Virus record (IMG/VR): IMGVR_UViG_3300045973_000434
Coordinates: 64,001 to 101,116 of that record
Length of the DNA stretch: 37,116 nucleotides
Direction: 5' to 3' (one strand)
Source of the DNA: a virus
Shown here: one piece after another, positions 13,173 to 34,072 of the stretch
Layout: each line of letters begins with the position of its first letter
Position numbering within the stretch: the stretch's first letter is position 1
The notes under the pieces: generated by a model
What the model was told of the DNA's origin: nothing
Database searches by the model: none
What the model saw: only the letters and a program-made list of their open reading frames with translations
Position numbers and translations under genes: made by a program

Positions 13173-13230
13173 ATAAAAGGGGGTTCCGTCGTACCTGGTT
13201 TACAGCCAGGCCAATCTCGGATAACCCCTT
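13173..13230 (-). terminator. Long-headed intrinsic terminator with anticodon-arm-like hairpin
   Basis: On the - strand a closing stem AAGGGGTT/AACCCCCTT (one bulge) continues, across a 2-nt bulge, into CCG/CGG. It is capped by a 5-bp hairpin CCTGG-CTGTAAA-CCAGG and followed by TTTTATTT. The 7-nt loop and stem copy a tRNA(Tyr, GTA) anticodon arm, but no T arm exists. It separates SSB from the primase. Confidence 0.75.
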
Positions 13231-13239
13231 GAATATATA

Positions 13240-13842
13240 TTAATCGAAAGGTAATGCGTTGATATTGTCTGGTTGTAGGTCAGCAGGAATCTCATCTACT
13301 TTCATTTCGAAAGGATTCGTTTGTGCTGGTGTTTCTACATCAGCTCTTTCTTTTGTCATCTTATCGATAGACAATATTTCGAGCTTAGACTGATTTTTAG
13401 GAATCTCCATTTTTTCAATGAAGGGTACATAGTTAGGCAAGGAAGTAAAGTTATTAAAAGAATAAACTACTTTAATTCTTACTTTCTTTCCTACATATGA
13501 ATTTCCTAAGAGTTTAATAGTTTCTAAGCAGAATGATTTAAAATCACTTGCTTGGAACGTATAAACATCTTCAGAGATAAATTTAGTAACGATGTGCTTT
13601 ACTCTCTTTATCTGATTGTTTGTTTTGTTTTCTAATTTTTCAGGATCTTGGTCTTTAGGTTTCCATTCAGTATGAGAAAGAGTTTTTCCTTCTTTTTCAA
13701 AATGAAATACTATAAACTCATTACCAGCATTAGGGCTTGTTTTATATTCAACTCCCTTTAATTCAACATCTTCGTGTATTCCAACGTCGATAAAATTTGC
13801 TGATCTTCCTTCTGAATCTACTGTTTTATTTACTGTATACAT
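13240..13842 (-). CDS. Single-stranded DNA-binding protein (putative)
   Basis: This 200-residue protein ends in an acidic linker and an SSB-type tip (DLQPDNINALPFD). The first ~150 residues are rich in alternating hydrophobic/basic stretches (VGKKVRIKVVYSFNNF), compatible with an OB fold. An acidic tail ending in Pro-Phe is the hallmark by which SSBs recruit partners. The context agrees: it lies between the Sak4-like ATPase and the primase. The start has one of the clearest Shine-Dalgarno sequences of the window (AAGGAG, 5 nt before ATG), suggesting high expression as expected for SSB. The assignment rests on tail, size and context, so it is probable, not certain. Confidence 0.7.
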   Translation of the reverse strand: MYTVNKTVDSEGRSANFIDVGIHEDVELKGVEYKTSPNAGNEFIVFHFEKEGKTLSHTEWKPKDQDPEKLENKTNNQIKRVKHIVTKFISEDVYTFQASDFKSFCLETIKLLGNSYVGKKVRIKVVYSFNNFTSLPNYVPFIEKMEIPKNQSKLEILSIDKMTKERADVETPAQTNPFEMKVDEIPADLQPDNINALPFD

Positions 13843-13867
13843 TGTACTCCTTGCCTTATTACAGGAC

Positions 13868-14518
13868 TTATTTATTTAACTTATCATTCACTCTCACAAT
13901 GAAAAGATTATAATCATTCATAATCCTCTCTTCTCCTTCATCCAGAAACACAGGTGGTGTTTTAGCTGAATCTTTACCACTATTATTCATACTGATAAAG
14001 TATTCTCTTTTTCCATCTTTGATTGTCATATCTGCGTAATTAACGATAGTGTAGTCTTTTTCAAGCATACCTTTCCATTCCTTACCTTTTACTGCCAATC
14101 GTTTTTCTATTGCACCTTCCTCTACTTCTACCCACTCGTAATGACCTGTCACTACTAAGTGCTTTGGATACTTTCTGATGAGATATTGCAACTTGCCAAT
14201 CTCTTCATTGTAGTAATTCCAAATATCAAACCCTTTTTTTGTATCTCTTGCAGTCTTTAAAAGACTGTCTACATATGCCGAAAAACTATCAAGTATTACT
14301 ACATCAATAGTACTATCTTTTGCATATTCGATAAGTTTCTGATAACATTCTTGCCAATTATTTGGAGTACTATAGTGCTTAAACTTGTTAATGAACGGCA
14401 ATGGTTTACTTTCGATATTAACATAACCAGTGGTATTAGGATTCATATTCCTAAATGCCATAGTTTTGCCTCTACCGGACATACCAATTAATAAAAATTG
14501 ATAAGCTACATTGCTCAT
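13868..14518 (-). CDS. Sak4-like P-loop ATPase (recombination)
   Basis: This 216-residue protein has a RecA-core/AAA_24-type P-loop. Walker A is GMSGRGKT (residues 12-19) and Walker B is IDVVILDSFSAY (Asp about residue 96). A His-containing HLVVTGHYEW strand and a LEKDYTIVNYADMTI segment follow, as in phage 'nucleotide-binding' Sak4 proteins. Sak4 ATPases assist single-strand annealing with a phage SSB, and the SSB-like gene lies directly downstream, 25 nt away. The gene follows the elaborate 14551-14689 RNA element, which may set its expression. Confidence 0.82.
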   Translation of the reverse strand: MSNVAYQFLLIGMSGRGKTMAFRNMNPNTTGYVNIESKPLPFINKFKHYSTPNNWQECYQKLIEYAKDSTIDVVILDSFSAYVDSLLKTARDTKKGFDIWNYYNEEIGKLQYLIRKYPKHLVVTGHYEWVEVEEGAIEKRLAVKGKEWKGMLEKDYTIVNYADMTIKDGKREYFISMNNSGKDSAKTPPVFLDEGEERIMNDYNLFIVRVNDKLNK

Positions 14519-14550
14519 TTTAAGTCTAAATTATTATAGTTCTAAAAATA

Positions 14551-14689
14551 AAAAAATTGAAGTGATACCTAAGCTAGATAACCGATATTGCGTTTGGGAA
14601 TCTTTCGGACCCTCGGTGGCATGACGCTTTCATCCTTGGGGGATTACGTATGTCATTCTAACTTTAGCTGCGCTTGTAAGTATCACTTC
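14551..14689 (-). ncRNA. Multibranched structured RNA ending in a U-run
   Basis: On the - strand a perfect 10-bp closing helix (14680-14689 with 14559-14568) is followed by AATTTTTTT, as in an intrinsic terminator. The enclosed ~111 nt can fold as a junction: helix AGCTA/TAGCT (14665-14669 with 14572-14576), helix ATGAC/GTCAT (14652-14656 with 14621-14625) enclosing hairpin 14632-14644, and a GGGTC-CGAAA-GATTCCC hairpin. It lies between an unknown gene and the Sak4-like gene, with no ORF. It could be a small RNA, a riboswitch-like attenuator for the downstream gene, or a complex terminator. Confidence 0.7.
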
Positions 14690-14690
14690 A

Positions 14691-14711
14691 CCATACAATA
14701 CTATTGTATGG
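14691..14711. other. Near-perfect inverted repeat
   Basis: CCATACAATA and its complement are separated by one base. It sits 15 nt after the stop of the 14727-15452 gene and directly before the multibranched RNA. No U-run follows on the - strand, so a processing hairpin or protein-binding site is as likely as a terminator. Confidence 0.6.
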
Positions 14712-14726
14712 GCTGGTACCTATAAA

Positions 14727-15452
14727 TTATACAGCTAAGTATCTCCGTCCAAAACGGTCTTCTTTAACTAACAATTTCTGTCCATCTTCAAGGATGATAC
14801 ATTCACTTGCATCATTGAGATCGACTAAGATATCATATTGTTTGTAACCAATTTTAACCCAGTATGCGAAGACGGTTATTTCTTCTAATTTCACTTCTGG
14901 TTTCGGCTGTGAATAAACATTAATCAAAGTCCTTTTTGCATTTGCAAGTAAAGGGCATTCAACTTTTGTCTGTCTCTGCTGCCAAACTGAACATGCTGGT
15001 CTTTCTTCGTGAACGTTAATGTTAACCCTTAAGTTTACATCTTCATTACGGTATGCGAATTTACGTTTATTGCCGTTGTTCTTGCAATAAGTAGATAACC
15101 TGCGAACTATTTTAGAATAGTCTTCAACGAGGTCATATACTTTAACGTCCTTTTTCCCGGTTAGGGAAATTATTGTGGTATAATTCATATCAATTCGATA
15201 ATCAAAATTAGGACTGTCTCCGAAGACAATCAAATTACTGGTTTCAATGTCGCTGAACCTTGTGTCACCTGTTTCTGACTTAAGATTCTTGTACTTGGCT
15301 ATTTCCTTTTCAAGATTCTTAATATAAAGTCCGCGATCGTTATCCGTATTAACTATTACAAACGGATTTTTCTTCTCTTTTGCTTCTCCGGTTAATATTG
15401 CGATACCTGAGATATTGTCTGATAATTGTAAAAAAGCAAATTGGTTTTTCAT
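14727..15452 (-). CDS. Hypothetical protein in replication operon
   Basis: This 241-residue soluble protein has mixed alpha/beta character and no signal peptide or membrane helix. The middle is basic (RRLSTYCKNNGNKRKFAYR, about 123-141), which could bind nucleic acid, and there are four scattered Cys without a zinc-finger spacing. It lies 3 nt downstream of the DnaB-like helicase stop, so it is translated with the replisome genes. I do not recognise a family. Slightly higher GC than its neighbours is visible. Confidence 0.72.
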   Translation of the reverse strand: MKNQFAFLQLSDNISGIAILTGEAKEKKNPFVIVNTDNDRGLYIKNLEKEIAKYKNLKSETGDTRFSDIETSNLIVFGDSPNFDYRIDMNYTTIISLTGKKDVKVYDLVEDYSKIVRRLSTYCKNNGNKRKFAYRNEDVNLRVNINVHEERPACSVWQQRQTKVECPLLANAKRTLINVYSQPKPEVKLEEITVFAYWVKIGYKQYDILVDLNDASECIILEDGQKLLVKEDRFGRRYLAV

Positions 15453-15455
15453 TTA

Positions 15456-16421
15456 TTATTTTTGTTGTAGATTAAACGGATTAGCTTCGTCAATCGAATT
15501 ATATTTCAAATTGTTGACGAAACTAAGAATTTTTGACTCCCCCTCCCTTACTTTAAGAAAGTGCATGTAAATCATATTTTCGACAGGTAGTTTGCTTGGT
15601 CCATAACTTGTCAATCCTAAGATTTCGGGACGGTGGAGTACAATTACATAGTCAGAGGCTTGAAATACTGAATCGCCACCAAATACATCTCGTCTCATAG
15701 GATAATGCATCGTGTGATTTGTTATCCTTTCATTCCCTTCAATTTCCCTATTCATTTGGCTTAATTGAATAATAGTAGTTTGTGCTACTTTCTTCGCTTG
15801 CATGAATACTTTCTGTAATTCATATAATGTTTCTCGTTCCTTTTCTCCTGTTTTACTTTTTGTAAGTAACGTATGGTCAAGAATAACGATCAACCATTTG
15901 TCTGAAAACGTTGATTGAAAGTACTGTATTGTTTGATCTATTTCATCAACAGCTCCTGGACTATCTATATAATAGATGGGGTACTGCTTGATTCGCTCTG
16001 CATGTCTTACTGCTACATCATAATCATCGTCTGATAAACCTTTATGATTCTCTTCTAGATTTCCACTATAAAGATCACTGGTTGTCTTTCTCATTTTATA
16101 TGATAGTTTTCTCCCCACTTGACGAGAGGCTAACATTTCAAAATTGAAATTTAAGACTATAAACTCACCTTTTTGATTTAACTCAAAAAGATCTGTCTCT
16201 AGACTATTCACAAACGATGATTTACCACTACCTGAAACTCCCGCAATTGTGTATATAGTGTTGGGTTCGATCCCACCCATACACTGCTTATTAAACTTAC
16301 TCCACCGAGTCTTTAAAGATTTGTTAACTCCTTTACGTCTGTTATCAATATACCGAAGTATCTCGTGTGCTGGCTCGCTAATATGTTTGTAAGAAAGTCT
16401 TTTACTCAACGTCTGTTCCAT
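15456..16421 (-). CDS. DnaB-like replicative helicase (SF4)
   Basis: This 321-residue protein is the RecA-like motor of a hexameric SF4 helicase. Walker A is GVSGSGKSS (61-69), Walker B is WLIVILDHTLL, and the glutamine motif is TTIIQLSQMNREIEG (motif 3). The C-terminal HFLKVREGESK segment holds the basic residues of motif 4, where DnaB proteins place the arginine finger. Only about 40 residues precede the core, so the DnaB N-terminal collar is absent or minimal, as in short phage helicases. It would unwind the phage fork 5'-3'. It overlaps the upstream putative loader by 20 nt. Confidence 0.88.
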   Translation of the reverse strand: MEQTLSKRLSYKHISEPAHEILRYIDNRRKGVNKSLKTRWSKFNKQCMGGIEPNTIYTIAGVSGSGKSSFVNSLETDLFELNQKGEFIVLNFNFEMLASRQVGRKLSYKMRKTTSDLYSGNLEENHKGLSDDDYDVAVRHAERIKQYPIYYIDSPGAVDEIDQTIQYFQSTFSDKWLIVILDHTLLTKSKTGEKERETLYELQKVFMQAKKVAQTTIIQLSQMNREIEGNERITNHTMHYPMRRDVFGGDSVFQASDYVIVLHRPEILGLTSYGPSKLPVENMIYMHFLKVREGESKILSFVNNLKYNSIDEANPFNLQQK

Positions 16422-16995
16422 ATGCCTTACGTTTTTCTTCTAGAGTGGTACTCAAATTGTTCTCAACCTGATCTGCATAAGCTTTCCAAGATTCAGAAGT
16501 TAGCCAGGCAGGCATACGTTTCATATAAGACATCTGTCCCTTAAGACTTCGTTCCTCTATTTCCGATCGTAAACATTTCATGATATGCTCATGTGTTGAA
16601 GGTTTCTTTCTTACAATATTGTGGTATAATTTCCTACATTTGTCCTGGTCCACTCTTAAGTAGTCATACATTCCATCTGGACGTAATGCCTTTATAGGAT
16701 ACAAGGCATAGAATTCATCAAATGGATCGTTTGTAAATGTCGACGCTTTGATGAATTTAGAGGATGTATTTAATGTTTCTAGATTTATGTAATTTCCAGA
16801 ACTATATGTAGATGATAAAAAACCAGCGATGTGCAATTGATCCAAGTCCTTATGCAAGTCATTAAGCGTATTTGTATACGCAATGTACTTCTTGAGTAAT
16901 TGTACTTTGTTCTCACTGATTAGTTTGGCAATGATGTATTGATGTGCAGTTATTTTGTTGTCAAGTAAAAATTGAATATCTATTTCTAATATCAT
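16402..16995 (-). CDS. Putative replication initiation/helicase-loader protein
   Basis: This 197-residue protein's N-terminal ~70 residues look like a winged-helix domain (helices, then GFLSSTYSSGNYINLE as a wing). The C-terminal part has FDEFYALYPIKALRPDG followed by a helical block and MSYMKRMPAWLTSESWKAY. This 'F..F...YP...' to 'aWL....W' layout is that of phage O/DnaD-type replication initiators and helicase loaders. Overlap with the DnaB-like helicase gene supports that role, since loaders are usually adjacent to the helicase. The assignment is by motif layout and context. Confidence 0.6.
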   Translation of the reverse strand: MILEIDIQFLLDNKITAHQYIIAKLISENKVQLLKKYIAYTNTLNDLHKDLDQLHIAGFLSSTYSSGNYINLETLNTSSKFIKASTFTNDPFDEFYALYPIKALRPDGMYDYLRVDQDKCRKLYHNIVRKKPSTHEHIMKCLRSEIEERSLKGQMSYMKRMPAWLTSESWKAYADQVENNLSTTLEEKRKAYGTDVE

Positions 16996-17050
16996 GTTCT
17001 TACCATTTATTGGCCTAGAGATACTAGTTTAGATAAATGTGACACATTAG

Positions 17051-17305
17051 CTAAGGTTTTTTTCTAACCCGCGTTATTTGTATTTGTTGTTTGCCATTAG
17101 CTACCGTTTTGACACCAGAAATTACTTTCTTAAAGAGGAATTGTTTGAAAGGCGCTATTCTCTCAATCTCTTCCACTGGTATGTCAAATGCGAATATATC
17201 CTTTGCAAATTCTGCTTTTGTACGCAGATCGGCTTTTTTATACAAAGGATAATAGAACTCTACCATGTCTATTGCTAGACGGATATCTCCTTTTGATGGT
17301 TTCAT
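17051..17305 (-). CDS. Small basic protein coupled to DNA polymerase
   Basis: This 84-residue protein starts inside the polymerase stop (TAATG overlap), so translation is coupled. The C-terminus is basic (ITRVRKKP), and the body is helical with aromatic residues (MVEFYYPLYKKADL). No known domain is recognised. By position it could be a polymerase accessory or replication factor, but only the coupling supports that. The downstream 55-nt gap shows no clear terminator. Confidence 0.65.
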   Translation of the reverse strand: MKPSKGDIRLAIDMVEFYYPLYKKADLRTKAEFAKDIFAFDIPVEEIERIAPFKQFLFKKVISGVKTVANGKQQIQITRVRKKP

Positions 17306-19164
17306 TAAAATAATGTTAATTGAGGATTGATAATTTCATTGATAATTTTCTGTGTACTGTTGATATAGTAACCATAATCAATATTATAGGGACCTTCCTT
17401 ATAATTATTAAATATAGTTACTAACTTATTTACCTCGTAATCTTCTCTTGGATAAAAAGGCTCTAGATTATGCATAAAATTAGCATATTCTGGAGGAGGC
17501 TCAGTTTTAAATAACTTAGCTCCATTAGTTGATACATAATATCGTACTGATTTTTGTAATATATCCTTTTGTAATTTACCATCTTTTAGATAGTGTAATT
17601 CGTTTGTAAATTTGTTGTCAATCTTTTTCGCTATACAAAAATCATAAATGTCTTTATGTTCTCTAATTGTTTTTTCTACAGGTGTGTTGTTTACAAAGTA
17701 CTCATACAGTGCTATTGAAACAATTGGTTTATCAAATCCTTTTGCAAGATCTGGTTCTGTTATAAAGATACCTTTTACTTTTGTTTTATTATTAGTTTTA
17801 ACTGCAACATAATTATTTACATCACGTCTTACATACTTTTTATAGTATGCATATTCTAATTCAAACTGAGTTTCAAGTTCCCATTTCTTACAAATATCAT
17901 AATATAATGATTCTTTGTTCTTTTCTACAATGGTTGTTACACCATCTGTGTTTGCTGATATTACTTTAAATCCATTCAAGACTAATTGTTCTATCAACAT
18001 TAAAATATATAATTGTCCATTAATTGTAACTCTTAAATTAACAATAGGATCATATAACCATAAATGTTCATTTAAAGTTTTACCTATTGCTGAATTTAAC
18101 ACAATCTTTAGACATTCGTTTTCAGCTTTACGACCTTCATGTTTTGCTCTAATACGTTTATCACGTACTTCACGAAAGTTCTTCATAAACTTAGTACCCA
18201 GATGTTCCGGGGCAAGATTATGATTAATTGCTAAACTAGGATACATACTAGCTATATCACAATCAATAAGATCTGTTGTATCTGTATATTCAAATACAGC
18301 ACCATTATCTACTGAATGAATACCACCAACTCCTAACTTATATTCTACACCACCAAATTTAACCCTCTTCTTAAAGAAAGGTTGATCTTTATAGTAAGTA
18401 TGGTCTCTTACTTCTTCTAGCAGATTCATTAAAGTTTCTGTTTGAAAGTTAATTTCTGGAAAGATCACCCAGTCAAATTTAATAAACTTTCTTACTGTTC
18501 GTAGATCTTTGAAATGTTTCTTTTCAAGACCTGTGGCTTCTGAATAGAACTTCTCTAAAATTCTATTAGCCATCCAACTATCTGATTCTGTATAGACATC
18601 AATTCCATATAAATCAGATATTTCAGCTCTAAGTTTTAATCTGTCAAGTAATCTAATATACAACTGTTCTGTCATTAAGACATCGTTTAAGTTGTAACTT
18701 CGAATTATATTAACATCTTCTAACTTAATTATTTTTTCAATAGGTATTGGTAAATCTTGAATCTTTGGCCATTTCATGCTAACTCCCATGAGTTTTAATG
18801 ATTTTTGGTAACCGCCCATTTTCATTAGGTCTATAGTTCTAAACGGTAGATTATACATATAATCTCTAAAAGAACCTCCAATAATTGTGGTAACTAGGTT
18901 ATGTATAGACATACATATTTCATTTGATGTAGTCATTGAAAAGTCAAAATACTTAACGTGTATAAACTTAAGTATTTGATTATCAAAACTAAATGAATTA
19001 TATCCTACAAACCATTTGTTATGATCACTCATAAAATCGTATAGAGCTGTTAAATCATTTCGTTCTTCAAAAATTATAAACTCTTTTATTTCTTTAGAGT
19101 TTACATTCTTAAATATTACCATAAAGTAATTAACATATGCTTCTATATCAAAAATCCAAATCAT
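17305..19164 (-). CDS. Family B DNA polymerase with 3'-5' exonuclease
   Basis: This 619-residue protein carries the full DEDDy proofreading set: Exo I FDIEAY (D6, E8), Exo II GYNSFSFDNQ (N56, D61), Exo III YNLND (Y157, D161). It also has the family B polymerase motifs: motif A DCDIASMYPSL (D303), motif B KIVLNSAIGKT (K353, N357, G361) and motif C ISANTDGVTT (D407). Motif C departs from the usual YGDTDS: the first Asp is Asn and the Ser is Gly, while the metal-binding second Asp remains. In motif B the usual Tyr is Ile. The length is short, close to protein-primed or small phage enzymes. This is the replicative polymerase. A clean terminator lies upstream at 19178-19212. Confidence 0.93.
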   Translation of the reverse strand: MIWIFDIEAYVNYFMVIFKNVNSKEIKEFIIFEERNDLTALYDFMSDHNKWFVGYNSFSFDNQILKFIHVKYFDFSMTTSNEICMSIHNLVTTIIGGSFRDYMYNLPFRTIDLMKMGGYQKSLKLMGVSMKWPKIQDLPIPIEKIIKLEDVNIIRSYNLNDVLMTEQLYIRLLDRLKLRAEISDLYGIDVYTESDSWMANRILEKFYSEATGLEKKHFKDLRTVRKFIKFDWVIFPEINFQTETLMNLLEEVRDHTYYKDQPFFKKRVKFGGVEYKLGVGGIHSVDNGAVFEYTDTTDLIDCDIASMYPSLAINHNLAPEHLGTKFMKNFREVRDKRIRAKHEGRKAENECLKIVLNSAIGKTLNEHLWLYDPIVNLRVTINGQLYILMLIEQLVLNGFKVISANTDGVTTIVEKNKESLYYDICKKWELETQFELEYAYYKKYVRRDVNNYVAVKTNNKTKVKGIFITEPDLAKGFDKPIVSIALYEYFVNNTPVEKTIREHKDIYDFCIAKKIDNKFTNELHYLKDGKLQKDILQKSVRYYVSTNGAKLFKTEPPPEYANFMHNLEPFYPREDYEVNKLVTIFNNYKEGPYNIDYGYYINSTQKIINEIINPQLTLF

Positions 19165-19171
19165 GTTTTAA

Positions 19172-19212
19172 GTATAAAAAGGGAGTGTCATTGACTTGGT
19201 AACACTCCCTTT
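19172..19212 (-). terminator. Intrinsic terminator upstream of DNA polymerase
   Basis: An 11-bp perfect stem (AAAGGGAGTGT with its complement, 19178-19188/19202-19212) has a 13-nt loop and is followed on the - strand by TTTTTATA. It ends the unit containing the 514-residue protein gene. Confidence 0.88.
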
Positions 19213-19216
19213 ATTA

Positions 19217-20761
19217 TTATTGTTTAAATTCAGAATAGATTTGTTGCCATCTGAATTTACCGGTTTTGTCTTCACTTAACAAATACTTGGTTTGTTGAGT
19301 TCTGACTTTTGGAATTACTGGTGTACCTTCACCTGATGGCTGTTTTTCACTCTTCATCATTTGCTGAAGATCAGTCATTCTCTTGGATGGTATTTGTAGA
19401 ACCTTAATAGTTTTATTGATAACACGAGGTTTTCTTTCAAACTTTATATGTTCATCTTTTAATCCAGTGAAAAATCGTCTCACTACAGGTTCACCACTCT
19501 CTTGTAAGAATGGTATGGTTTCAAGTAATTTTACTTTCTTACCATCTTTCTTCTCCCAAAGTTCCCACACTACTGGACGATATTCATATTGTGGTACTTT
19601 TCGTATTGTTTCAAACTGTTCGAGCTCATCACTCTTAGGTTTTACTTTAATAGTTTGGAAGCGAGTATAAGGACTACTTGCTTGTCCACGTTTCTTTTTA
19701 CGATCAAATAATTCATCACGTTCAACGATACGAGGTCTTCCTTTGTATTCAAGTAGTTGTGCCTCATAGTTTCCCTGAGACATTTCCTTACGTTTGTTAA
19801 ATTTTACTTTTTGTTGGGCACGATACTCTTCTTTCGAAGCATATTCCCACCCGGCTTTGATAAGTTTACCAGCATAAAACGTATTAATACGAATTATATC
19901 TCCTTTGATTGGATCTTTTATACAGATCATTTTCTGTTGATCCGGTGTTGCGTATAACTTAGGAGTTCCTGGTTTACCACGAGATGTTCGCAGCTGTGTT
20001 GTAGTTATACGTTTCCCTTCCTTTTTTGTTTCGTCTTTTGGTTCTTTAACAGTAATTTCAGTATCGATATTTGTGTCTCCTGGAGGAACAATTACTTTTT
20101 CTTTCCAGTCAGCACCATATGTTTCTGTACGATATATTTCTGTTCCTCGTTCAAGATCGACATTCCAATTACTGTCTACATATATACCTTCAAAGTATTT
20201 ATGTAAAACATTTGTTGGACTTAATTCAGGACTGTTTAATTGAAGTAAATATCTCCAATCCTGATCTATTGTCATATCTCTCTCACTACTTGGTTTGAAC
20301 CACTTTTTGTAAAGTTCTGATTCCTGATGTAAAGAATATTGTTCAGTATATAAGTTTCTCGTTGTATTCCAACGAAGATATACTTTGTGTGGATAATCAG
20401 TAAGTTTAGGGAGAACTATTACATGTAAACCATTATCAAAAACAAATTTTAATGGTTTTGTTTCAAGTAATAATCTCAATTCACTGGTTTCTATTTCTAC
20501 TCTTGTACGAACTTCACCTTGTTGCATTTTTTGTTCCATTTCCTTTTTTTGAATATTTGGATCTGTACTACTATTTACCTTCGCCTTCTTCCATTCTTGC
20601 CAATCAATACGATAGCAATCATTGTCCAGCGGTGTTCTTCCTGAAGCTTGAACGTATTCATATTCAAATGATGGAGTATATACTTCTTCCATTGAAGGAC
20701 ATCTATACCTATCATAATCAAGAATACGTGCAAGTCTCAGTAAATCTTCTCTTTCGATCAT
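19217..20761 (-). CDS. Hypothetical charged protein, 514 residues
   Basis: The family is not recognised. The protein is highly charged and rich in Lys, Glu, Arg and Gln. A central low-complexity stretch (about 245-285, with EPKDETKKEGKR and TSRGKPGTPKLYA) separates an N-terminal half with several Trp/Tyr (YFEGIYVDSNWNVDLERG) from a C-terminal half with KR-rich linkers. No signal peptide or membrane helix is visible. The start is 1 nt after the preceding 81-residue gene. Such lengthy charged proteins between replication genes may bind DNA or act as scaffolds; nothing in the sequence proves it. Confidence 0.75.
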   Translation of the reverse strand: MIEREDLLRLARILDYDRYRCPSMEEVYTPSFEYEYVQASGRTPLDNDCYRIDWQEWKKAKVNSSTDPNIQKKEMEQKMQQGEVRTRVEIETSELRLLLETKPLKFVFDNGLHVIVLPKLTDYPHKVYLRWNTTRNLYTEQYSLHQESELYKKWFKPSSERDMTIDQDWRYLLQLNSPELSPTNVLHKYFEGIYVDSNWNVDLERGTEIYRTETYGADWKEKVIVPPGDTNIDTEITVKEPKDETKKEGKRITTTQLRTSRGKPGTPKLYATPDQQKMICIKDPIKGDIIRINTFYAGKLIKAGWEYASKEEYRAQQKVKFNKRKEMSQGNYEAQLLEYKGRPRIVERDELFDRKKKRGQASSPYTRFQTIKVKPKSDELEQFETIRKVPQYEYRPVVWELWEKKDGKKVKLLETIPFLQESGEPVVRRFFTGLKDEHIKFERKPRVINKTIKVLQIPSKRMTDLQQMMKSEKQPSGEGTPVIPKVRTQQTKYLLSEDKTGKFRWQQIYSEFKQ

Positions 20762-20762
20762 A

Positions 20763-23466: not shown

Positions 23467-23540
23467 TAAAAATCCCGGACAGTGTGGTTGACTTAATGTA
23501 CCCCAAGGGGTCGCGACGCCAGAGCCTACTATCCGGGACA
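23467..23540 (-). terminator. Long-headed structured terminator between reductase and MoxR gene
   Basis: The closing stem TCCCGGA/TCCGGGA (23532-23538 with 23473-23479), plus a 1x1 mismatch and 3 further pairs, is followed on the - strand by TTTTTATT. The enclosed 44 nt contain a GTCGCGAC palindrome and an ACCCC/GGGGT hairpin and are GC-rich against the background. Confidence 0.75.
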
Positions 23541-25559: not shown

Positions 25560-25570
25560 ATATATAAATA

Positions 25571-25637
25571 TAAAAAGGACTCTCTTCTATCACACTACAG
25601 TAAACTGAAGGCTTTCGCAGGATATTAGAGAGTCCTA
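25571..25637 (-). terminator. Structured terminator/leader upstream of reductase
   Basis: A perfect 10-bp stem (AGGACTCTCT with AGAGAGTCCT, 25627-25636/25576-25585) is followed by TTTTTATA on the - strand. Inside are a TATC/GATA helix, a GC-GAAA-GC hairpin with a GNRA loop and a CAG-TTTA-CTG hairpin. It ends about 12 nt before the reductase ATG, so it can terminate the upstream gene or act as an attenuator for the reductase. No cobalamin-riboswitch box was recognised. Confidence 0.75.
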
Positions 25638-25646
25638 ATTTAAAAA

Positions 25647-26123: not shown

Positions 26124-26152
26124 ACTCAAAATTTGATTTTAGGAACTTATTT

Positions 26153-26178: not shown

Positions 26179-26202
26179 TGATTGTAATACATACCAAGCA
26201 TT

Positions 26203-26721: not shown

Positions 26722-26726
26722 AAATT

Positions 26727-26814
26727 AAGATTTGGTTTAACAATGTAAGGAATCACACCTTACCCCATAAAGGTCTTTATACGTTTGAAACCATAAAAGG
26801 TTTCGCCAAATCTT
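26727..26814 (-). promoter_or_regulatory. Three-way-junction RNA leader of the lysozyme-like gene
   Basis: On the - strand a perfect 9-bp closing helix AAGATTTGG/CCAAATCTT (26806-26814 with 26727-26735) encloses two hairpins: GAAACC-(6 nt)-GGTTTC (26799-26804 with 26787-26792) and GTAAGG-(7 nt)-CCTTAC (26758-26763 with 26745-26750). The element ends 5 nt before the ATG at 26721, so folding would bury or expose the start region. This placement suggests a translational control element for timed lysis. No known riboswitch consensus was recognised. Confidence 0.6.
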
Positions 26815-26839
26815 GATTATTTTTGATTACTGGTTTTGA

Positions 26840-26909
26840 TGTCTAAGAGGGAATCGAACCCCCGTCCTCTACTTCATAAAGTAGCACTCCGCCCCTGAGC
26901 TATTAGACA
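26840..26909 (-). tRNA. tRNA or tRNA-like gene, anticodon arm irregular
   Basis: On the - strand a perfect 7-bp acceptor TGTCTAA/TTAGACA is followed by TA, a D stem GCTC/GAGT, a 5-nt variable loop and a T arm GGGGG-TTCGATT-CCCTC, all at canonical places. The anticodon arm is 16 nt instead of 17 and self-complementary (CTACT...AGTAG). It folds as 5 bp with a 6-nt loop or 4 bp with an 8-nt loop TTTATGAA, so the anticodon cannot be assigned with confidence (TAT and ATG are readings). CCA is not encoded. It may be a functional unusual tRNA or a decaying one. Confidence 0.65.
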
Positions 26910-26917
26910 AACCAAAT

Positions 26918-26935
26918 ATCTCCTGCTAAGGAGAT
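26918..26935 (-). other. Hairpin between the 192-residue gene and the tRNA
   Basis: A 6-bp perfect stem ATCTCC/GGAGAT with a 6-nt loop is followed on the - strand by ATTTGGTTTG. It lies 27 nt after the stop of the gene at 26962-27540 and 9 nt before the tRNA 5' end, so it may be a terminator or an RNase processing site for the tRNA. Confidence 0.5.
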
Positions 26936-26961
26936 CTTATTCTGTACATGATCGTTGCATT

Positions 26962-27540: not shown

Positions 27541-28133
27541 CAAGGAGACGCGTTTATTATTTTTGTTATTAGATTATAATCCGGTCCATTGAAGATTTGC
27601 CCAAAGAAATAATATATAGCGAAGAGTGTGATAAATATTAAGATTGTATTTATAGTCTTAATTTTATACTCCTGCATACTCATAGCATGAGCCAAACCTG
27701 CAGAATCAAAGTAGAGAAAGATCATATAGAATAAAAACAATAGAAATAATGTATAAAATGATACATCATATATTCTCTTTTTATGTAGTAAGTATTCTAC
27801 TCTACTTTGAGATAGTCCTGACTGTTGAGTTATGCGATCCATTATGGACGCACACCTCCTTTCCTGCAATCTCAGATTCTGATCAAGAACCTCAGCTACT
27901 TTTGATATAGCACTTGCATTTTCAGTGTTAGACTTAGTGTTTCCTTCAATAACAGATGACATTGTACCAGTAGTCCGGTTGTCTTGCACAACTATCCTTG
28001 CTGGTTCAAATTTCATATGCATTGTTTTTGTGCTGTCATCACTACGTACTTCGATAGAAGCGGTTGGTGCAGTATATGATGATAACATCATTACTAACAG
28101 CGGGGCAATTAGGCATGTTAAGTACCTTCTCAT
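27540..28133 (-). CDS. Exported membrane protein with C-terminal two-helix hairpin (holin/spanin-like candidate)
   Basis: This is a 197-residue protein with ATG at 28133; a TTG nine bases upstream was rejected. N-terminal signal sequence: MRRYLTC followed by a hydrophobic LIAPLLVMMLSS core and polar APTAS. A soluble, Ser/Thr/Asn-rich and then coiled region follows (SAISKVAEVLDQNLRLQERR). Two membrane helices come near the C-terminus (FYTLFLLFLFYMIFLYF and INTILIFITLFAIYYFF). With the lysozyme-like gene one gene downstream, a holin or spanin role is plausible but unproven. No lipobox was seen. Confidence 0.72.
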   Translation of the reverse strand: MRRYLTCLIAPLLVMMLSSYTAPTASIEVRSDDSTKTMHMKFEPARIVVQDNRTTGTMSSVIEGNTKSNTENASAISKVAEVLDQNLRLQERRCASIMDRITQQSGLSQSRVEYLLHKKRIYDVSFYTLFLLFLFYMIFLYFDSAGLAHAMSMQEYKIKTINTILIFITLFAIYYFFGQIFNGPDYNLITKIINASP

Positions 28134-28151
28134 AATAATCAAAAATGATTA

Positions 28152-28625
28152 TTAGAAACGACGGTTCTTAAGCTGTTCTTCGTAGAAGTCAGAATTTGCC
28201 TTCTCATCGATTTGTCTCTGAAGAGATCTCTCCAATTCCACTTCGGTGATTACTTCACAAACCTGTTTTGCTGTTTCGAGATCGGTGAAATAGCAGTTGT
28301 CAAGTCCTGTGACACGGCCATTTTCTTTTGGCAGGTCATAGATACCATTAACTGTTATGCAACCCGGTTTTGCTTTGTTGCTGAGAGTTTCAACAACAAT
28401 AGGCTGAATAGCTGTGTGTACAGCTGTGTCCGGGGTTACTTTTGTTCCTTTTTTTATTGGTTGCAATGTGATACCGAAGATCTGGTCTTCACATGATAGA
28501 TCCCTTGGATCTACAATTGGCACCTCAAGTGCAACATCCTGAATTCTGTTAGCATTGCTAGCAGCTGCTTTCACTGCTTCGATATTTAATATCAAAGTCT
28601 TAACGTCCTGATTTTTGTTTCTCAT
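28152..28625 (-). CDS. Hypothetical protein
   Basis: This 157-residue protein is soluble, acidic at the C-terminus, rich in Val/Thr/Asn, with Cys in CEDQIFG, KPGCITV, NCYFTD and KQVCEV. No signal peptide or membrane helix. The middle (IVVETLSNKAKPGCITVNGIYDL) looks beta-rich. Family not recognised. GC is somewhat higher than in neighbouring genes. It is cotranscribed with the membrane-protein gene 19 nt downstream. Confidence 0.68.
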   Translation of the reverse strand: MRNKNQDVKTLILNIEAVKAAASNANRIQDVALEVPIVDPRDLSCEDQIFGITLQPIKKGTKVTPDTAVHTAIQPIVVETLSNKAKPGCITVNGIYDLPKENGRVTGLDNCYFTDLETAKQVCEVITEVELERSLQRQIDEKANSDFYEEQLKNRRF

Positions 28626-28643
28626 TTTTTTGATTTGTTTTGA

Positions 28644-29108
28644 TTAATTTATAATAGTGAACTTTTCTTCGTGCTTACGCAAGAATTTTATTAGAAGAAT
28701 GTTTTCGTTATCATCCAACCGAGTTCTTATAAGTGGAGTAGATCGTGTTATATCCTCGTAATCATACTCCAATTCAACCCATATATTCGTAAGTGGATGT
28801 TCTTTTTTACCCCACAAATGAAAAGGTTCTCTGTCTTTTTTTAATGCCCAATTTTTCTTATAAGGTCTCAAGTAGATAACAGTATCGATCTCACGATCAA
28901 CACCAATACCACCACTTCTTTTTCTATAAAACATAAGGGGAACAGTAATGTTGAATAAACCTAAGATGTTTTTAACCTTAAAAGGCATAGTAACTCGTTG
29001 ATAAACTAGTTTTTCACCTCCAACTCTTGCATCAGTCACAACTCTCCTGCCTTTCATTTCAGGTACATCTTTTTTGATTAAGGTGTAGGTTGTTTTCTTT
29101 TTTATCAT
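28644..29108 (-). CDS. Hypothetical beta-rich protein
   Basis: This is a 154-residue protein. I chose the ATG at 29108, since the upstream in-frame ATG at 29165 adds a Cys/His/Asn-rich tail unlike coding sequence. The body is basic and beta-rich, with repeated Lys/Arg strands (TTYTLIKKDVPEMKGRRVV, YQRVTMPFKVKNILGLF), suggesting a small structural or tail-associated protein, but no family is recognised. It is the first gene after the 2-kb gene-free region. Confidence 0.68.
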   Translation of the reverse strand: MIKKKTTYTLIKKDVPEMKGRRVVTDARVGGEKLVYQRVTMPFKVKNILGLFNITVPLMFYRKRSGGIGVDREIDTVIYLRPYKKNWALKKDREPFHLWGKKEHPLTNIWVELEYDYEDITRSTPLIRTRLDDNENILLIKFLRKHEEKFTIIN

Positions 29109-29183
29109 AATGCATTTGTTTTGGTGATTGAAAGTGTTGAAGCATAGACCCGATTTTGAGTGCATAATTTCGTTATGAAATCG

Positions 29184-31100
29184 TAAACCTATTATTTAAA
29201 CTTGGGTAAATTTGATAATACTCGTAATGCTTTTAGGCAACTTAAGCCTTGCACAGCTTAAGCGTTTACCCCACATGCAACGATTAAGTACACACTGGTA
29301 ATAAACACAGGGGAATCGAGTCTTGATAGCTTCATCTTTTTAGGTTAAATAAGTCTAACCTGGTGTACCGAAATACACGCCAAATAACTTCATTTAATTT
29401 TTGTTGCAACTCTTATATCCGGTTGCAGTCTAGGTATTGTACCTATTTGTAGTGATCAGTTGATAAATTTAAAGTATTGTTTATACTTCTCATAGTCGTG
29501 CTATTGTACCAGATTTCACCCTGGCGTTTACTCCGTCCTCTCATATCTGCTATGTTTGACATTCTCGATAACTTAGAGAAAGGCGGGCTTCGAGGCTAAT
29601 GGAGCGCTTTACAGCGTCTTTTCAACCTTCACATCTTCATATGATTCATATACTTCTTACTATGGCTTAGAATTAAGCGCAAGGCCATCTACGCTCGTTT
29701 ATACCCACCCTGACACCATTTGCATGGTTAGCCCATCAAATGGACTTTATACAGTGTGTTATAAAATCTGTCATGTTAGTTTCTAAGACTTTACGGTCTA
29801 TGTGTTTGTTGTTTGCGGGTTTGACTCGTTGTTGCTCGTTCTCAACTCAATACGTCTACAGACGTTTTCCTCAAAGGCTGTCCAATACTACTCCTCATAT
29901 CGTAAACTCGTTACGTAGTGATTTTGTATGCCACTTTCCGTGTTAATAACTAAACGCTAATACTAAATCGATTATCTGAAATAATATCAATGAGAGTCAG
30001 GGGCAACCTGCTTATCCATGAATTGCTTTTCTAAACGTTTCCGTTATACAATGGGATTTAAACCCATGAAGCCATATACCTTTTTATTACAACCAAGGTC
30101 CCCTACGTGTGAGTAACCATGCCTCGATGCTTTATTTAGTTTTTTAGGCCCCCTATTTACGATAGGGTCTCTTTTGTATCTGTTAGAATATAGATGCCAG
30201 TGCAATACCCTAACCCTTAGAACTATGATATGTTTGTTAGTTTTTAGAAAACTGGCAAAAGCAACAACTTTAATGAGTTTACTACACTTCGTGGTTATTC
30301 CTGTTATTGATTAGTATGCACGGTTGTTTGTTTCCAGTTGTTTCCTGGGACTCGCACGCTATTTCAATATATACCCTAGCCTAGTATTACTAGCTATTTT
30401 ACGTCAATTAACGTGGTCAGGGTTTAGATCCCACTTTTACCGGTGTCTTCCGTAGACACTCCGTAGCCTGATTCGTTGGGTTCTCGTGAATCACACGCCA
30501 CTCCGTTTCACTCTGTTTGTATTATATACCAATTACGGTATTAGGAGAGAGTTTAGGCAATTTGTTGCTCCGTTATCTCACATCTAAAATGTGAACCTCC
30601 GCGATCGTTACCATGGTGTTACGCACGATGCTTAATCGACTTGCCTCCCACTTAACGTGTATCCTAGTACCTAAACCTTTTCATCGATGGCCTTAACAGA
30701 CTTACTTGTTTATTATCCAGGGAATTCCACCCTTTACGCCACTCATTTTGTTTGTAGTAGAACGACTATTGCCTAAATTCATCATTGTCGGCACAGTGTA
30801 CCAAGTTTGCTAATCCAAGCACGTTCTCCATGCATGTTTCGAATCGTGTCGGCATTTAGCATCTGACTCCAGCCTACTGTCTGCTGACATTCTAACTCGA
30901 AGTGAGTGCATCCACAGTCCTATCGGGCGCAATAAACTTCGTTAGACTGCTATGTCTAGAGAGAATGAATAACTTTGCGATGCGATATCGCGGTCACTAT
31001 ATTACTGAGGATCGTCTACCAGTTCCTAAAAGCAATCATTCTATGCTTAAAGTTCCTTAAAGAGTTTGACCTTACGGGGTCTAATTGCAATTCCCAGCAA
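29184..31100 (-). ncRNA. Giant structured noncoding RNA region (new class or GOLLD/ROOL-like)
   Basis: About 1.9 kb without a convincing ORF (longest frames about 60-70 codons, on the opposite strand). Sampled lines run 45-52% GC against roughly a third in the genes. Many hairpins are visible on the - strand: CTTAAGC/GCTTAAG (29241-29262), AGGTTA/TAACCT (29342-29361), TGCAAC/GTTGCA (29405-29427), AGGTA/TACCT (29432-29444), CGCT-GTAA-AGCG with a GNRA loop (29605-29616), CGAT/ATCG (30626-30638), and a perfect 10-bp long-range helix (30768-30777 with 30552-30561). Strand is inferred from flanking genes and the GNRA loop. Phages are known to carry giant ornate RNAs (GOLLD, ROOL) near tRNAs; I cannot confirm membership. 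Exact ends are uncertain and it may hold more than one RNA. Confidence 0.6.
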
Positions 31101-31109
31101 TGTACAAAA

Positions 31110-32690
31110 TCAACTATAATAATAGCGACAAATTTTTCCATCATGTGTTTTCAAAAATGATTCTGTCATTAAAATAACAGTATCAATCTGAATTGGCTGA
31201 TCAAGAGCTTGATTAATCTTCTTACGATAGATTTCCATTAATGATTCGGTGTGAAGGATTCCTAATCCTTTAGCTTCTACGAAATTTATATCTGGATACA
31301 CAAGCAAAATTAGCTTATCCACAGTTCTTTCTTCTTGATCAATAGATCGCCTTAAAAGAATTATAACTTCCTGAATATAGGGAATTGATTTGATTATCCT
31401 TTCTATTTTGTCCAATTGGACAGGAAGTTTGAAGTCGTTGAGTATTATGGCTTTCTTACGGCCATATACAAACAAAACATTTGATTTTGGGTCGGTGACG
31501 CCAATATCTCCTGTTAAATAATTATCTCTGTACCGAACTTCACGTGTGTAACTATCATCACCTACATATCTTTCGAATAAGGTGGTGCCAGAAATTTCTA
31601 ACTCTTCTTCATTAGTAGTATTGAGAAAAATGTTTTGTAGGGCGGTGCCAACTGCAAAAGGCATTCTCTTTACTTTTGTTGAAAAATCGTTTATCGCAAC
31701 TAACTGATTTGTCTCCTGAGAACCATAAGTAGTATAAATTGGAAACTTACCTATCAAAGTTGATAGTATCTCCTCATGAATGGTACTGTTATATACCACA
31801 AGAGCTTCTAACTTCTTACCATAATAACTCTTCATCTTTAGCAGTGCTATTTTCTTAAAGAGCCATTTCATCCAGGTTATCGAAAACAAAAATGAATAAA
31901 CTCGTTTACTATACAAATAGTTAACTTCGTTTCTCCATACACTTTCAATAGAGTTTGTGTCCTCTATAACGACTTCTGCTTGATCTTTAGAACCAACCAG
32001 AATACAACCTTTAACAAATGGTAGTAACACAGTTAAAAAATGAGATTCAGCAAACTCAACATTTGAGTATACTTTATTCATTTCTTTAAACGGTACTGCT
32101 ACTATTGCTTTAGTTAAGAAAGCACCAATAGAACTGTGATGTGATTCAACCCATTTGGGTTCACCATATTCAGTTCCAGAGGTTGCAGTAATTACTGCCC
32201 CATCATCATCTTCATCAAACGTATCTAATATTTTGATGTCTACATTCATGTTTTTCTCTGAACTTACTAAAATTTCAGCAAGAGTTTCATAATTGGTACT
32301 GTTATTACGTTCAAAAATAACACTTAAATCTTCTGTAGAAATTAGTGTTTGAACAAACAACGCTTTACCTAAGTCATCTGATACTAAATCAGGATCAATA
32401 AAGATATGATTTGTGTTGGTTAAGAGTAGGATATGAACAGTTTCTAATTTGTTCATTTTAGGGTGTATAACTAATAAGTTTACACCTTTTAATAAACATG
32501 CAATATAGATGGCGATCCAATTATAGGAGTTTCTACCATATAATGCAATAGTACTATTACTATCCAATTCAAATACATCAAGCACATTATATATTGTAAG
32601 AATCCGTTTAAATAACGTTTTCATAGTAGTGTGCTCAAATACAGGGAGATACCAACAATCTCTTACTGCTTGTAAAATCCGCTTTTTCAT
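31110..32690 (-). CDS. Adenylate-forming (ANL superfamily) enzyme, acyl-CoA synthetase-like
   Basis: This 526-residue protein carries the adenylation motifs in order: an N-terminal NSTIALYGRNSYNWIAIY segment, A3 TATSGTEYGEPKWV (168-181), A5 TTYGSQETN (320-328), A7 YLTGDIGVTD (391-400), A8 YGRKKAIIL (409-417) and a C-terminal A10 THDGKICR with the catalytic Lys (K519). It would activate a carboxylate with ATP to an acyl-AMP and pass it to CoA or another acceptor. The layout is closest to long-chain acyl-CoA synthetases, but the substrate pocket is divergent. No carrier protein is fused or visible next door. Its start overlaps the 126-residue gene by ATGA, so it is coupled to it. Such enzymes are rare in phages, so its substrate is of interest. 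Confidence 0.85.
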   Translation of the reverse strand: MKKRILQAVRDCWYLPVFEHTTMKTLFKRILTIYNVLDVFELDSNSTIALYGRNSYNWIAIYIACLLKGVNLLVIHPKMNKLETVHILLLTNTNHIFIDPDLVSDDLGKALFVQTLISTEDLSVIFERNNSTNYETLAEILVSSEKNMNVDIKILDTFDEDDDGAVITATSGTEYGEPKWVESHHSSIGAFLTKAIVAVPFKEMNKVYSNVEFAESHFLTVLLPFVKGCILVGSKDQAEVVIEDTNSIESVWRNEVNYLYSKRVYSFLFSITWMKWLFKKIALLKMKSYYGKKLEALVVYNSTIHEEILSTLIGKFPIYTTYGSQETNQLVAINDFSTKVKRMPFAVGTALQNIFLNTTNEEELEISGTTLFERYVGDDSYTREVRYRDNYLTGDIGVTDPKSNVLFVYGRKKAIILNDFKLPVQLDKIERIIKSIPYIQEVIILLRRSIDQEERTVDKLILLVYPDINFVEAKGLGILHTESLMEIYRKKINQALDQPIQIDTVILMTESFLKTHDGKICRYYYS

Positions 32691-33067
32691 ATATGAATTC
32701 TTATTAATACATCTCCTGTTGAACTTTGGTAAGCTTCAAAAGACGTATAAGTTTCATCAAGAATTATATGATAAACCAGTGGAATTTTACTTGTTAATTC
32801 TTCAGTGAAATTCTTAAACTTTATGACAATCATTGGATTTTCGATATCCCTTGTCATTGAATCTAATACTTCAATGTTGAATATACCATAAGGATGTGTT
32901 AGGATAAAATCCTGTACATCCTTCATACATTTCTTAATAGCGAGTTGCTTTGAAAAAACAACCTGACCATTATTTTGTTCTAGTGTGAATATCACATCAT
33001 AAAACAAATGCGACAGCAAAGATAATGCTAACTTTGCTACTCTTGGAGTTTCAATTGTACCTTTCAT
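32687..33067 (-). CDS. Hypothetical protein coupled to the adenylate-forming enzyme
   Basis: This 126-residue soluble protein has a helical N-terminus (RVAKLALSLLSHLFYDVIF), then alternating strands (IVIKFKNF, LVYHIILDETYTSF, VLIRIHI). Its stop overlaps the enzyme's ATG (ATGA). No phosphopantetheine-type DSL motif, so it is not an obvious acyl carrier protein. It may be a partner or acceptor of the enzyme. Family not recognised. Confidence 0.68.
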   Translation of the reverse strand: MKGTIETPRVAKLALSLLSHLFYDVIFTLEQNNGQVVFSKQLAIKKCMKDVQDFILTHPYGIFNIEVLDSMTRDIENPMIVIKFKNFTEELTSKIPLVYHIILDETYTSFEAYQSSTGDVLIRIHI

Positions 33068-33072
33068 ATATA

Positions 33073-33354
33073 TTACGTTTTAATTGATTTCAGGTACTCA
33101 TCATAAGGCATTAAACGACTTATCATGACAAGATATGCAGGTACATTATTAACAGTATTTGCATGTGGGTATATAGAATCTTCTTCCATAACCTTACAAA
33201 AAGCAAAGTCCTGTCTTTTATCTTTATGATAACGATGACCTGATAAAAGCATAAGTTTATCATTAAGTTCACCTTTTGATGGTGATGTTAAAACTTTTGT
33301 ACGATGTTTTAACATGGTGTCCCATACTATGGAACCTTTACGAATTTTTCTCAT
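33073..33354 (-). CDS. Hypothetical small basic protein
   Basis: This is a 93-residue protein. I chose the ATG at 33354 because an AAAGGAG Shine-Dalgarno-type sequence lies 10 nt upstream; a TTG nine bases further upstream sits on that sequence. It is basic (MRKIRKGSIVWDTMLKHR) with several His and one Cys in the middle (SGHRYHKDKRQDFAFCKV), not spaced like a known zinc finger. Family not recognised. Confidence 0.65.
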   Translation of the reverse strand: MRKIRKGSIVWDTMLKHRTKVLTSPSKGELNDKLMLLSGHRYHKDKRQDFAFCKVMEEDSIYPHANTVNNVPAYLVMISRLMPYDEYLKSIKT

Positions 33355-33859
33355 TGGGAACAATCTCCTTTTTTGATTTAGTTTGTTCTTTCCTTAGTTC
33401 ATTACTTGCATCAATTCGCTCAAGAAAATGATTGACATGCTTATAAAGCTTTATTTCCCCTTCCTTGACAGATGAACCATCAAAGGTGTCAACATGATCT
33501 CTTAAGAATAATACATGAGTAGCACCTAAAGAATTAGGTTTTCTAAGAAGTACATAACCGTTCCTTATTTCATCAGCTGAAAGCCAATATTTATGTTCCA
33601 TTGTAATACCATGCGCTGCTACAATAGGCTTCATTAATAAAGCCATACTCATTTGTAGTTCGTCTATTGTGTTTTTTATTTCATTTCGCAAATCCTTCAG
33701 TTTATCCTCTGAAGCAAATCGCTTGGAACATTTTAGCATTAACGTATTCGCACTGTCAAATGCTACTAACGTTTTTTTCAACTTAACGACTTCATTAGAA
33801 CGAATTATACAAATCTCGACCACCGATTTTTCTTTTGGATCGTTTGTCTCTTTTTGCAT
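33338..33859 (-). CDS. Hypothetical protein
   Basis: This is a 173-residue protein. ATG at 33859 is preceded by AAAGGA 7-8 nt upstream; an in-frame TTG at 33892 is less likely. The first half contains a helical segment (FASEDKLKDLRNEIKNTIDE) and the second a compact alpha/beta region (EHKYWLSADEIRNGYVLLRK). The C-terminus is Lys/Glu-rich. It overlaps the next gene by 17 nt. Family not recognised. Confidence 0.66.
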   Translation of the reverse strand: MQKETNDPKEKSVVEICIIRSNEVVKLKKTLVAFDSANTLMLKCSKRFASEDKLKDLRNEIKNTIDELQMSMALLMKPIVAAHGITMEHKYWLSADEIRNGYVLLRKPNSLGATHVLFLRDHVDTFDGSSVKEGEIKLYKHVNHFLERIDASNELRKEQTKSKKEIVPNEKNS

Positions 33860-33953
33860 CTCTTTTTCCTTTCTTGTTATTAGTACGTTCAATCTTCTCT
33901 ACTCTTGGAGTAGGTTCGATTTTATCAATTTGATTAAGATTTATCTTTTTCAT
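33795..33953 (-). CDS. Possible small Lys/Arg-rich protein
   Basis: This 52-residue ORF (ATG at 33953) has a very basic core (NNKKGKRDAKRDKRSKRKIGG) and overlaps the start of the 173-residue gene by 65 nt in another frame. It could be a nucleic-acid-binding peptide, or simply an A-rich shadow frame of the leader. It begins directly after the structured terminator at 33961-34072, which favours a real first gene. Low to moderate confidence. Confidence 0.4.
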   Translation of the reverse strand: MKKINLNQIDKIEPTPRVEKIERTNNKKGKRDAKRDKRSKRKIGGRDLYNSF

Positions 33954-33960
33954 GATAATA

Positions 33961-34072
33961 AAAAAAGAGCCCCTCACTCCCAAAATCGCAGACTCTGGTT
34001 AAACATAAATACACCATTAAATAGAGTGGATAATCTCTAAATACAGTATAAATACATAAGCAGTGAAGGGCT
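33961..34072 (-). terminator. Long-headed structured terminator
   Basis: The closing stem AGCCCTTCACT/AGTGAGGGGCT (34062-34072 with 33968-33978, one mismatch) is followed on the - strand by CTTTTTTTATT. It encloses 83 nt of AU-rich sequence with possible small hairpins. It ends the transcript of the 1006-residue protein and starts the 33-kb gene group. Confidence 0.75.

Follow-up and report, generated by a model that had tools for sequence, protein, structure and literature searches.

The leftward gene block of a large virus genome (IMG/VR record IMGVR_UViG_3300045973_000434) contains putative intrinsic terminators whose stems close on long heads, several with internal hairpins, which raises the question of what these heads do. 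We analyzed bases 64001–101116 of the 101,116-base record (hereafter the window; 37,116 nucleotides), in which a preliminary description had listed five such sites on the minus strand, near 13.17, 14.55, 23.47, 25.57 and 33.96 kb, and had suggested that they release stable small RNAs from 3′ ends, act as attenuators or bind a phage factor. The head at 14.55 kb, designated R1, carries a conserved, covarying RNA module that recurs in different scaffolds in other phages. The explanation that we favor, with a probability of roughly 0.6, is that long-headed terminators are intrinsic terminators with tips taken over by structured noncoding RNAs, R1 being a trans-acting small RNA whose 3′ end would be made by the terminator. 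R1 and its surroundings in the window are:

14690–14558, minus strand: long-headed terminator at 14.55 kb (14-bp stem, head of 105 nt, T-run)
14568..14677, minus strand: R1 module (5′ GCGCAGCUA, P1, P2, P3 ACCGA/UCGGU, P4 and conserved CCCAAACGCAAUAU strand; covariance model match of 75.8 bits)
14677..14690, minus strand: 5′ arm of the R1 outer (terminator) helix, 14 bp
14558..14571, minus strand: 3′ arm of the R1 outer helix, 14 bp
14549..14557, minus strand: U-tract after the R1 terminator
13868..14518, minus strand: downstream gene for a RecA-like/AAA_24 ATPase of 216 aa (Pfam PF13479)

R1 is modelled as a three-way-junction RNA of ~95 nt. It occupies the junction between a gene for a 241-aa protein and the RecA-like gene, where comparison of upstream regions gave a shared core (CCACCGAGG, a hairpin and ACCCGAACGCAAUAUCGGUUA) sitting within terminator stems of quite different sequence. 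The consensus has a 5′ GCGGGUA strand, a P2 loop of sequence GUCCAAA, a P3/P4 arm often capped by a GNRA tetraloop and a CCCRARMGCAAUA strand. In an alignment of 25 copies scored with a P1+P3+P4 model, standard pairs filled 84.7% of the pair cells and 95 cells were double-changed, vs. 37.3 ± 5.4 after shuffling; the covariation score was 0.447, compared to at most 0.144 for slid partners. The copies were chosen via a core pattern, which biases the conservation of the core, the 3′ arm of P3 and part of P4 and leaves P1, P2 and the outer helix unbiased. P1 has a new sequence in most copies (e.g., CGAAUUAC/GUAAUUCG, UGGGGCAAG/CUUGCCCCA and CGCACUGC/GUAGUGCG), and both P1 and the apical P2 change in step though they lie beyond the search pattern. 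Furthermore, the GUCCAAA-like loop at the tip of P2 is constant while its stem varies, and the hairpin was found by rule in 24 of 28 copies. We dropped a candidate pseudoknot between the GCGGG strand and the UCC loop, which involved invariant GG/CC pairs only and did not covary.

The helix enclosing R1 is also a recurrent feature. The best enclosing helix had a mean score of 23.2 across 30 copies, vs. 14.9 ± 0.46 with permuted 3′ flanks, and exceeded the 95% permuted level in 16 of the 30 copies and the 99% level in 10. Terminator-type stems surround R1 in the window, L003, L017, L048 and L066 (L-numbers denote the loci compared and G-numbers whole records). At least four T were present among the next eight bases in 11 of 14 copies from crAss-like phages, a count that leaves out the variants L043 and L046 (0 and 2 T), and in fewer of the other copies. 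The 14.55-kb head thus has the three marks of the R1 family: the covariance model score, covarying helices and an enclosing outer helix.

We regarded the window as belonging to a crAss-like phage far removed from those already named because the best named matches of its DNA polymerase were Crassvirales genomes, at about 31–34% identity. The polymerase, primase and NrdJ-like names of window genes are putative assignments from their sequences. We used the polymerase (9 loci) and the RecA-like protein (53 loci) as queries to collect relatives at the junction. R1 occupies the terminator tip at the RecA-like junction in 13 of 40 distinct crAss-like loci and the remainder carry other heads or short-loop terminators; only the R1 count is firm, as the automatic junction scan mis-assigns some loci (L026 and L027 are short-loop by eye). 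The closest relative of the window by RecA-like protein (L061, 85%) has a short-loop hairpin at the junction and no R1 in its 34.7-kb record. Thus, the R1 head is not needed for a terminator at this junction, since L061 and others have short-loop terminators and no R1 in the record examined. Three further heads at this junction (L047, L049 and L028) have a P2-like loop (UCCAAA or UUCCACA) with a different P3 arm, and those of L047 and L049 also have an R1-like 5′ strand; these are perhaps R1 variants beyond the reach of the model.

Scanning with the core pattern retrieved 25 viral contigs, 23 of them with the 5′ arm of P3; L062 and L072 lack this arm and were taken as chance. At E ≤ 1 the covariance model recovered 34 matches among 69 loci. 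Of these, 31 scored 52 bits or more and are strong, several of them from the same contig; L043 (32 bits) and L046 (28 bits) are weaker variants, and L059 is borderline. The 101-kb window record has a single copy of R1. Sixteen of the 19 whole records gave one strong match apiece, with second matches that were only marginal; in G016, G017 and G018 it was absent or marginal by the covariance model.

Outside crAss-like phages the module changes setting. It lies in terminator-like stems in L066, L068 and L081, and inside or just ahead of tRNA arrays in L076 and L070. The L076 module is identical to one in Cellulophaga phage phi4:1 (BLASTN against named phages), where it fills an unannotated gap of the NC_021788 tRNA array with a pseudo-tRNA on one side and tRNA-Trp on the other. 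The same search found no named phage for the L068, L040 and L082 modules and only 24-nt matches for L074. In L065, L074 and L079, R1 replaces the anticodon loop of a tRNA-like fold with an acceptor-type stem, a D-arm-like hairpin and a T arm. Beside these R1-bearing tRNA-like genes, tRNA matches spanning 104–134 nt, as if ~30–60 nt had been inserted, were seen at L074 5367–6109, L079 13040–14722 and L065 1050–1155.

Contigs of bacterial and archaeal genomes gave 54 pattern hits and 14 covariance model matches at E ≤ 1, four of them strong (L109, L104, L113 and L101). Ten further matches, led by L131 at 28 bits, lack the 5′ arm of P3 and were read as chance. The strong copies are on two contigs of Patescibacteria metagenome-assembled genomes with cellular genes (L104 and L101), a Bacillota contig of 9 kb and a crAss-like contig; L109 resembles a crAss-like contig that was binned with Clostridiales. 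Patescibacteria seldom carry R1, the only carrier among 286 genomes being the query genome itself.

What comparison of the sequences establishes for R1 is a conserved core, covarying helices, an outer helix enclosing it in many copies, a U-tract in the window copy and the presence of the module in different scaffolds. R1 is probably a small RNA gene, more than a stop signal. In the mechanism that we propose, the upstream leftward transcript would end at the R1 outer helix, the terminator would supply the 3′ end of R1 and protect it, and R1 would be trimmed and then act in trans within the infected cell. The heads at 23.47 kb (R2) and 33.96 kb, together with a head found in related phages (R3, described below), could be separate RNAs in the same arrangement. 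Among the three options of the preliminary description, release of stable small RNAs from 3′ ends is the best supported, because the 14.55-kb head looks like a conserved independent RNA that keeps the same predicted fold in terminators, a tRNA-like scaffold and a tRNA array.

Several observations weigh against this explanation. Every crAss-like copy of R1 that we found precedes the same RecA-like gene, as would a cis-regulator. The tRNA-like cases (L065, L074 and L079) share neighbor genes and may be one event. In 14 of 30 copies the outer helix did not reach the 95% permuted level, several copies outside crAss-like phages (L064, L068, L070 and L079) have poor U-tracts, and 4 of 28 copies have no P2 hairpin by rule. 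No convincing R1 match came from the eight named crAss-like genomes searched, crAss001 and phi14:2 among them (three gave marginal ones, E 0.3–0.8), and R1 is therefore not a core feature of crAss-like phages. The head at 13.17 kb looks dispensable. Lastly, termination and a discrete RNA are both predictions from sequence.

The strongest competitor, which we nonetheless consider unlikely, is a cis-acting attenuator or riboswitch, with the head as an aptamer in the terminator through which a ligand or protein controls read-through to the gene 14–39 nt downstream. Its main argument is the invariant position of R1 directly before the RecA-like gene in crAss-like phages, and the short distance to the next start, which leaves little room for a promoter, is in its favor as well. 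A terminator-embedded aptamer also has a published precedent in the HMP-PP (thiS) riboswitch, for which abnormal loop conservation was the clue (PMC6478431). In R1, too, a conserved loop lies within the stem of a predicted intrinsic terminator. However, the HMP-PP riboswitch switches between exclusive folds and is associated only with thiamin-related genes (PMC6478431), whereas R1 is larger and its P1–P4 are modelled as nested in the terminator stem rather than competing with it; we saw no aptamer fold excluding that stem, although alternatives were not searched exhaustively. The downstream gene is the same within crAss-like phages, but elsewhere the genes that follow R1 are unrelated (primase, pRha, CHAP lysin and terminase). 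R1 copies also lie in tRNA arrays or tRNA-like scaffolds, and each record has one strong copy. We favor a trans-acting RNA over a switch because the module persists in terminators, tRNA-like folds and tRNA arrays alike, is followed by no common gene outside crAss-like phages and has helices that do not compete with the terminator.

Put- and nut-like antitermination RNAs offer another model, in which the head would be bound by a phage or host factor that acts on the polymerase. The location of the heads at gene junctions of the leftward block and their conserved unpaired loops are consistent with such a site. Yet the head differs at each junction, R1 is present once per record and also in tRNA arrays, and neither a candidate factor nor any other shared partner gene was found near the R1 copies outside crAss-like phages, making a factor site improbable. 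We give still less credence to ordinary terminators with unselected long loops. In relatives, the same junctions can indeed have plain short-loop terminators in place of long heads, the 13.17-kb head has no conserved counterpart and the 25.57-kb heads look diverse; this reading may hold at these two sites. For R1 it is refuted by covariation, which R3 also displays, and in the 33.96- and 23.47-kb heads loop sequences are retained while the stems vary.

R1 had no counterpart in Rfam 15: the window copy gave no match at E ≤ 10, and none was found at the module in 12 loci at the gathering threshold or in 5 loci at E ≤ 10. A GCCAC-like box and the NrdJ-like gene prompted us to consider a cobalamin riboswitch, which we rejected: Rfam gave no match at R1, and the R1 core departs from the consensus of that riboswitch. 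Bacterial small RNAs may end in an intrinsic terminator, usually a separate 3′ hairpin. A terminator hairpin would likewise form the 3′ end of R1, but its conserved fold lies inside the terminator tip. T4 RNA C and RNA D are stable RNAs of unknown function in a phage tRNA cluster, and R1 can likewise be a non-tRNA RNA within a phage tRNA array, a likeness of location. Fremin and colleagues reportedly compiled a catalog of candidate phage structured RNAs, which our literature search did not locate and which could hold R1. The HDV-like theta ribozymes of gut phages are small structured RNAs associated with tRNA genes (PMC10879173). R1 resembles them in being a small structured phage RNA with a tRNA-gene association, but its modelled fold is different and it mostly does not adjoin a tRNA; it had no match among the ribozyme models of Rfam 15, whose inclusion of a separate theta model was not checked. 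No description of R1, R2 or R3 was found in the open-access literature searched or in Rfam 15 as scanned. By these comparisons R1 is an uncatalogued, single-copy RNA family with its nearest published architecture in the HMP-PP riboswitch (PMC6478431), from which its predicted mechanism differs.

Phage terminators are usually read as punctuation. Should functional RNAs reside in their tips, many RNA genes of phages would have escaped notice. We tentatively extend the trans-acting explanation to a possible, though not the likelier, scenario in which large phages maintain a set of structured RNAs that act in trans and are housed in interchangeable protective scaffolds such as terminator tips and tRNA-like folds. 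R1 would be one such RNA, exchanged between unrelated phages, rare in candidate-phylum contigs and acting on a conserved host target (translation, tRNA metabolism or defense). The strong covariation of R1, its compact size, its one strong copy per record and its cultivated carrier phi4:1 make its expression and function directly testable.

A second head, R3, which has two loops able to pair with each other, also recurs in terminators of other phages and stands ahead of two different genes. It precedes the RecA-like gene in L033 and L043/L046 and the NrdJ-like gene in L187, and a pattern scan retrieved 10 contigs, five of which were accepted (L193, L196 and L198, plus the known L200 and L201). 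Seven R3 sequences scored on P2 and the loop-loop pairs had nine double-changed cells, vs. 2.7 ± 1.3 after shuffling, and a score of 0.349, compared to at most 0.143 for slid partners. L043/L046 are one column off for the loop-loop pairs and their two cells at columns 35–68 are accidental, leaving seven double-changed cells by subtraction against a shuffle control from the full count. The loop-loop pairing is GAGC:GCUC in four sequences, UAGC:GCUA in L033 and, by eye, UGGC:GCCA in L043/L046. In L043 and L046, an R1 variant and an R3 terminator stand in tandem. Together, R1 and R3 suggest how RNAs could move between scaffolds, which bears on the origin of new small RNAs.

The 14.55-kb terminator belongs to a set of stems found by scanning both strands of the window for at least 7 bp followed by a T-run, with loops up to 140 nt. 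The remaining sites of the preliminary description are:

13177..13230, minus strand: long-headed hairpin at 13.17 kb (6-bp closing helix with internal loop; weakest of the five)
23473..23538, minus strand: long-headed terminator at 23.47 kb (11-bp stem, head of 44 nt, T-run; head R2, AGGCUCUG ... CAACCACAC; 3′ of the NrdJ-like gene)
25576..25636, minus strand: long-headed terminator at 25.57 kb (10-bp stem, head of 41 nt, T-run; 5′ of the NrdJ-like gene)
33968..34072, minus strand: long-headed terminator at 33.96 kb (11-bp stem, head of 83 nt, T-run; inner UUAUCC-loop hairpin and GUCUGCGAUUU hairpin)
8738..8773, minus strand: short-loop terminator (loop 14)
10266..10286, minus strand: short-loop terminator (loop 5; readable on both strands)
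19181..19209, minus strand: short-loop terminator (loop 9)

Strong stems (at least 8 bp with at least four G-C pairs, followed by a T-run) numbered seven on the minus strand, vs. a mean of 0.1 per dinucleotide shuffle (n = 20). The same scan found five on the plus strand, so such stems are not confined to the minus strand. A weaker extra minus-strand stem is present at 3.2 kb in the 7-bp scan. After the eight stems of the preliminary description, T fills 28 of 32 places at positions 1–4 (6, 8, 7 and 7 of 8) and a fraction of 0.32 further on. All five long-headed sites end 14–39 nt ahead of the next gene start, counting an ATG at 33953 for the 33.96-kb site, and their folding z-scores range from −2.4 to −4.9. 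A G-C-containing stem with an immediate U-run is present at 14.55, 23.47, 25.57 and 33.96 kb and only in part at 13.17 kb.

The proposed closing helix of 7–11 bp with a U-run was thus recovered at four of the five sites, at 10–14 bp, the 14-bp helix at 14.55 kb exceeding that range; the 6-bp helix at 13.17 kb fails the scan. The three ordinary short-loop terminators (8.74, 10.27 and 19.18 kb) all reappeared in the stem scan. The idea of one terminator family holds for the shared architecture but not for the heads: no relationship was seen between any two in the window, and the record has a single R1. On sequence grounds the five heads are a family by architecture only, not one RNA family. Conservation among related phages was borne out by covariation at 14.55 kb and by motifs kept in a few relatives at 33.96 and 23.47 kb, but so far not at 13.17 kb.

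We also searched for counterparts of the other heads with nhmmer, using eight window stretches against the loci collected by then, and found clear matches only for the heads at 14.55 and 26.72 kb; motifs at 23.47 and 33.96 kb were identified by eye at syntenic sites. In the 33.96-kb head, the UUAUCC-loop hairpin is common to the window, L095, L096 and L100 while the closing stems differ, and the GUCUGCGAUUU hairpin is common to the window and L095. The R2 head has a AGGCUCUG plus AACCA motif in the window, L181 and L180, again with different closing stems. Among its eight relatives, L182 is doubtful, L183 has a short-loop terminator and four others are without such a head. The eight relatives at 25.57 kb have long heads of diverse appearance in seven cases and a short one in the other, and at 13.17 kb the relatives compared carry plain short-loop hairpins. 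A structure without a U-run and 3′ of a tRNA gene was conserved in L095, L096 and L099:

26727..26814, minus strand: related structure at 26.72 kb (9-bp closing helix, conserved ACGUAUAA core)

Scanning eight loci with these other heads against Rfam returned only two tRNAs. The tRNA gene at 26838–26909 (minus strand) has an abnormal anticodon loop, and ARAGORN gives it no anticodon name. In L180, a close relative at the 23.47-kb site, a tRNA-like sequence recognized by eye, and not called by the Rfam scan, separates the NrdJ-like gene from the R2 terminator. A 52-codon frame (33795–33953, minus strand) directly follows the 33.96-kb terminator and has a similar start in L095 (ATG at 33953 in the window). 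A 21-nt perfect inverted repeat, CCATACAATAGTATTGTATGG, is located at 14691–14711, immediately before the R1 outer helix, and was not seen at the L002 site.

Elsewhere in the leftward block, 1.94 kb (29166–31109, minus strand) are without a long gene on either strand, the longest stop-free frame having 89 codons, and have a G+C content of 0.396 vs. 0.331. No credible Rfam match was found in this stretch. Its blocks are 68–80% identical to relatives, whereas in the distant relatives the proteins on either side share only about 22–49% identity. One block had two-sided changes in 24 of 52 predicted pairs (six sequences), making the stretch a candidate for a giant structured RNA.

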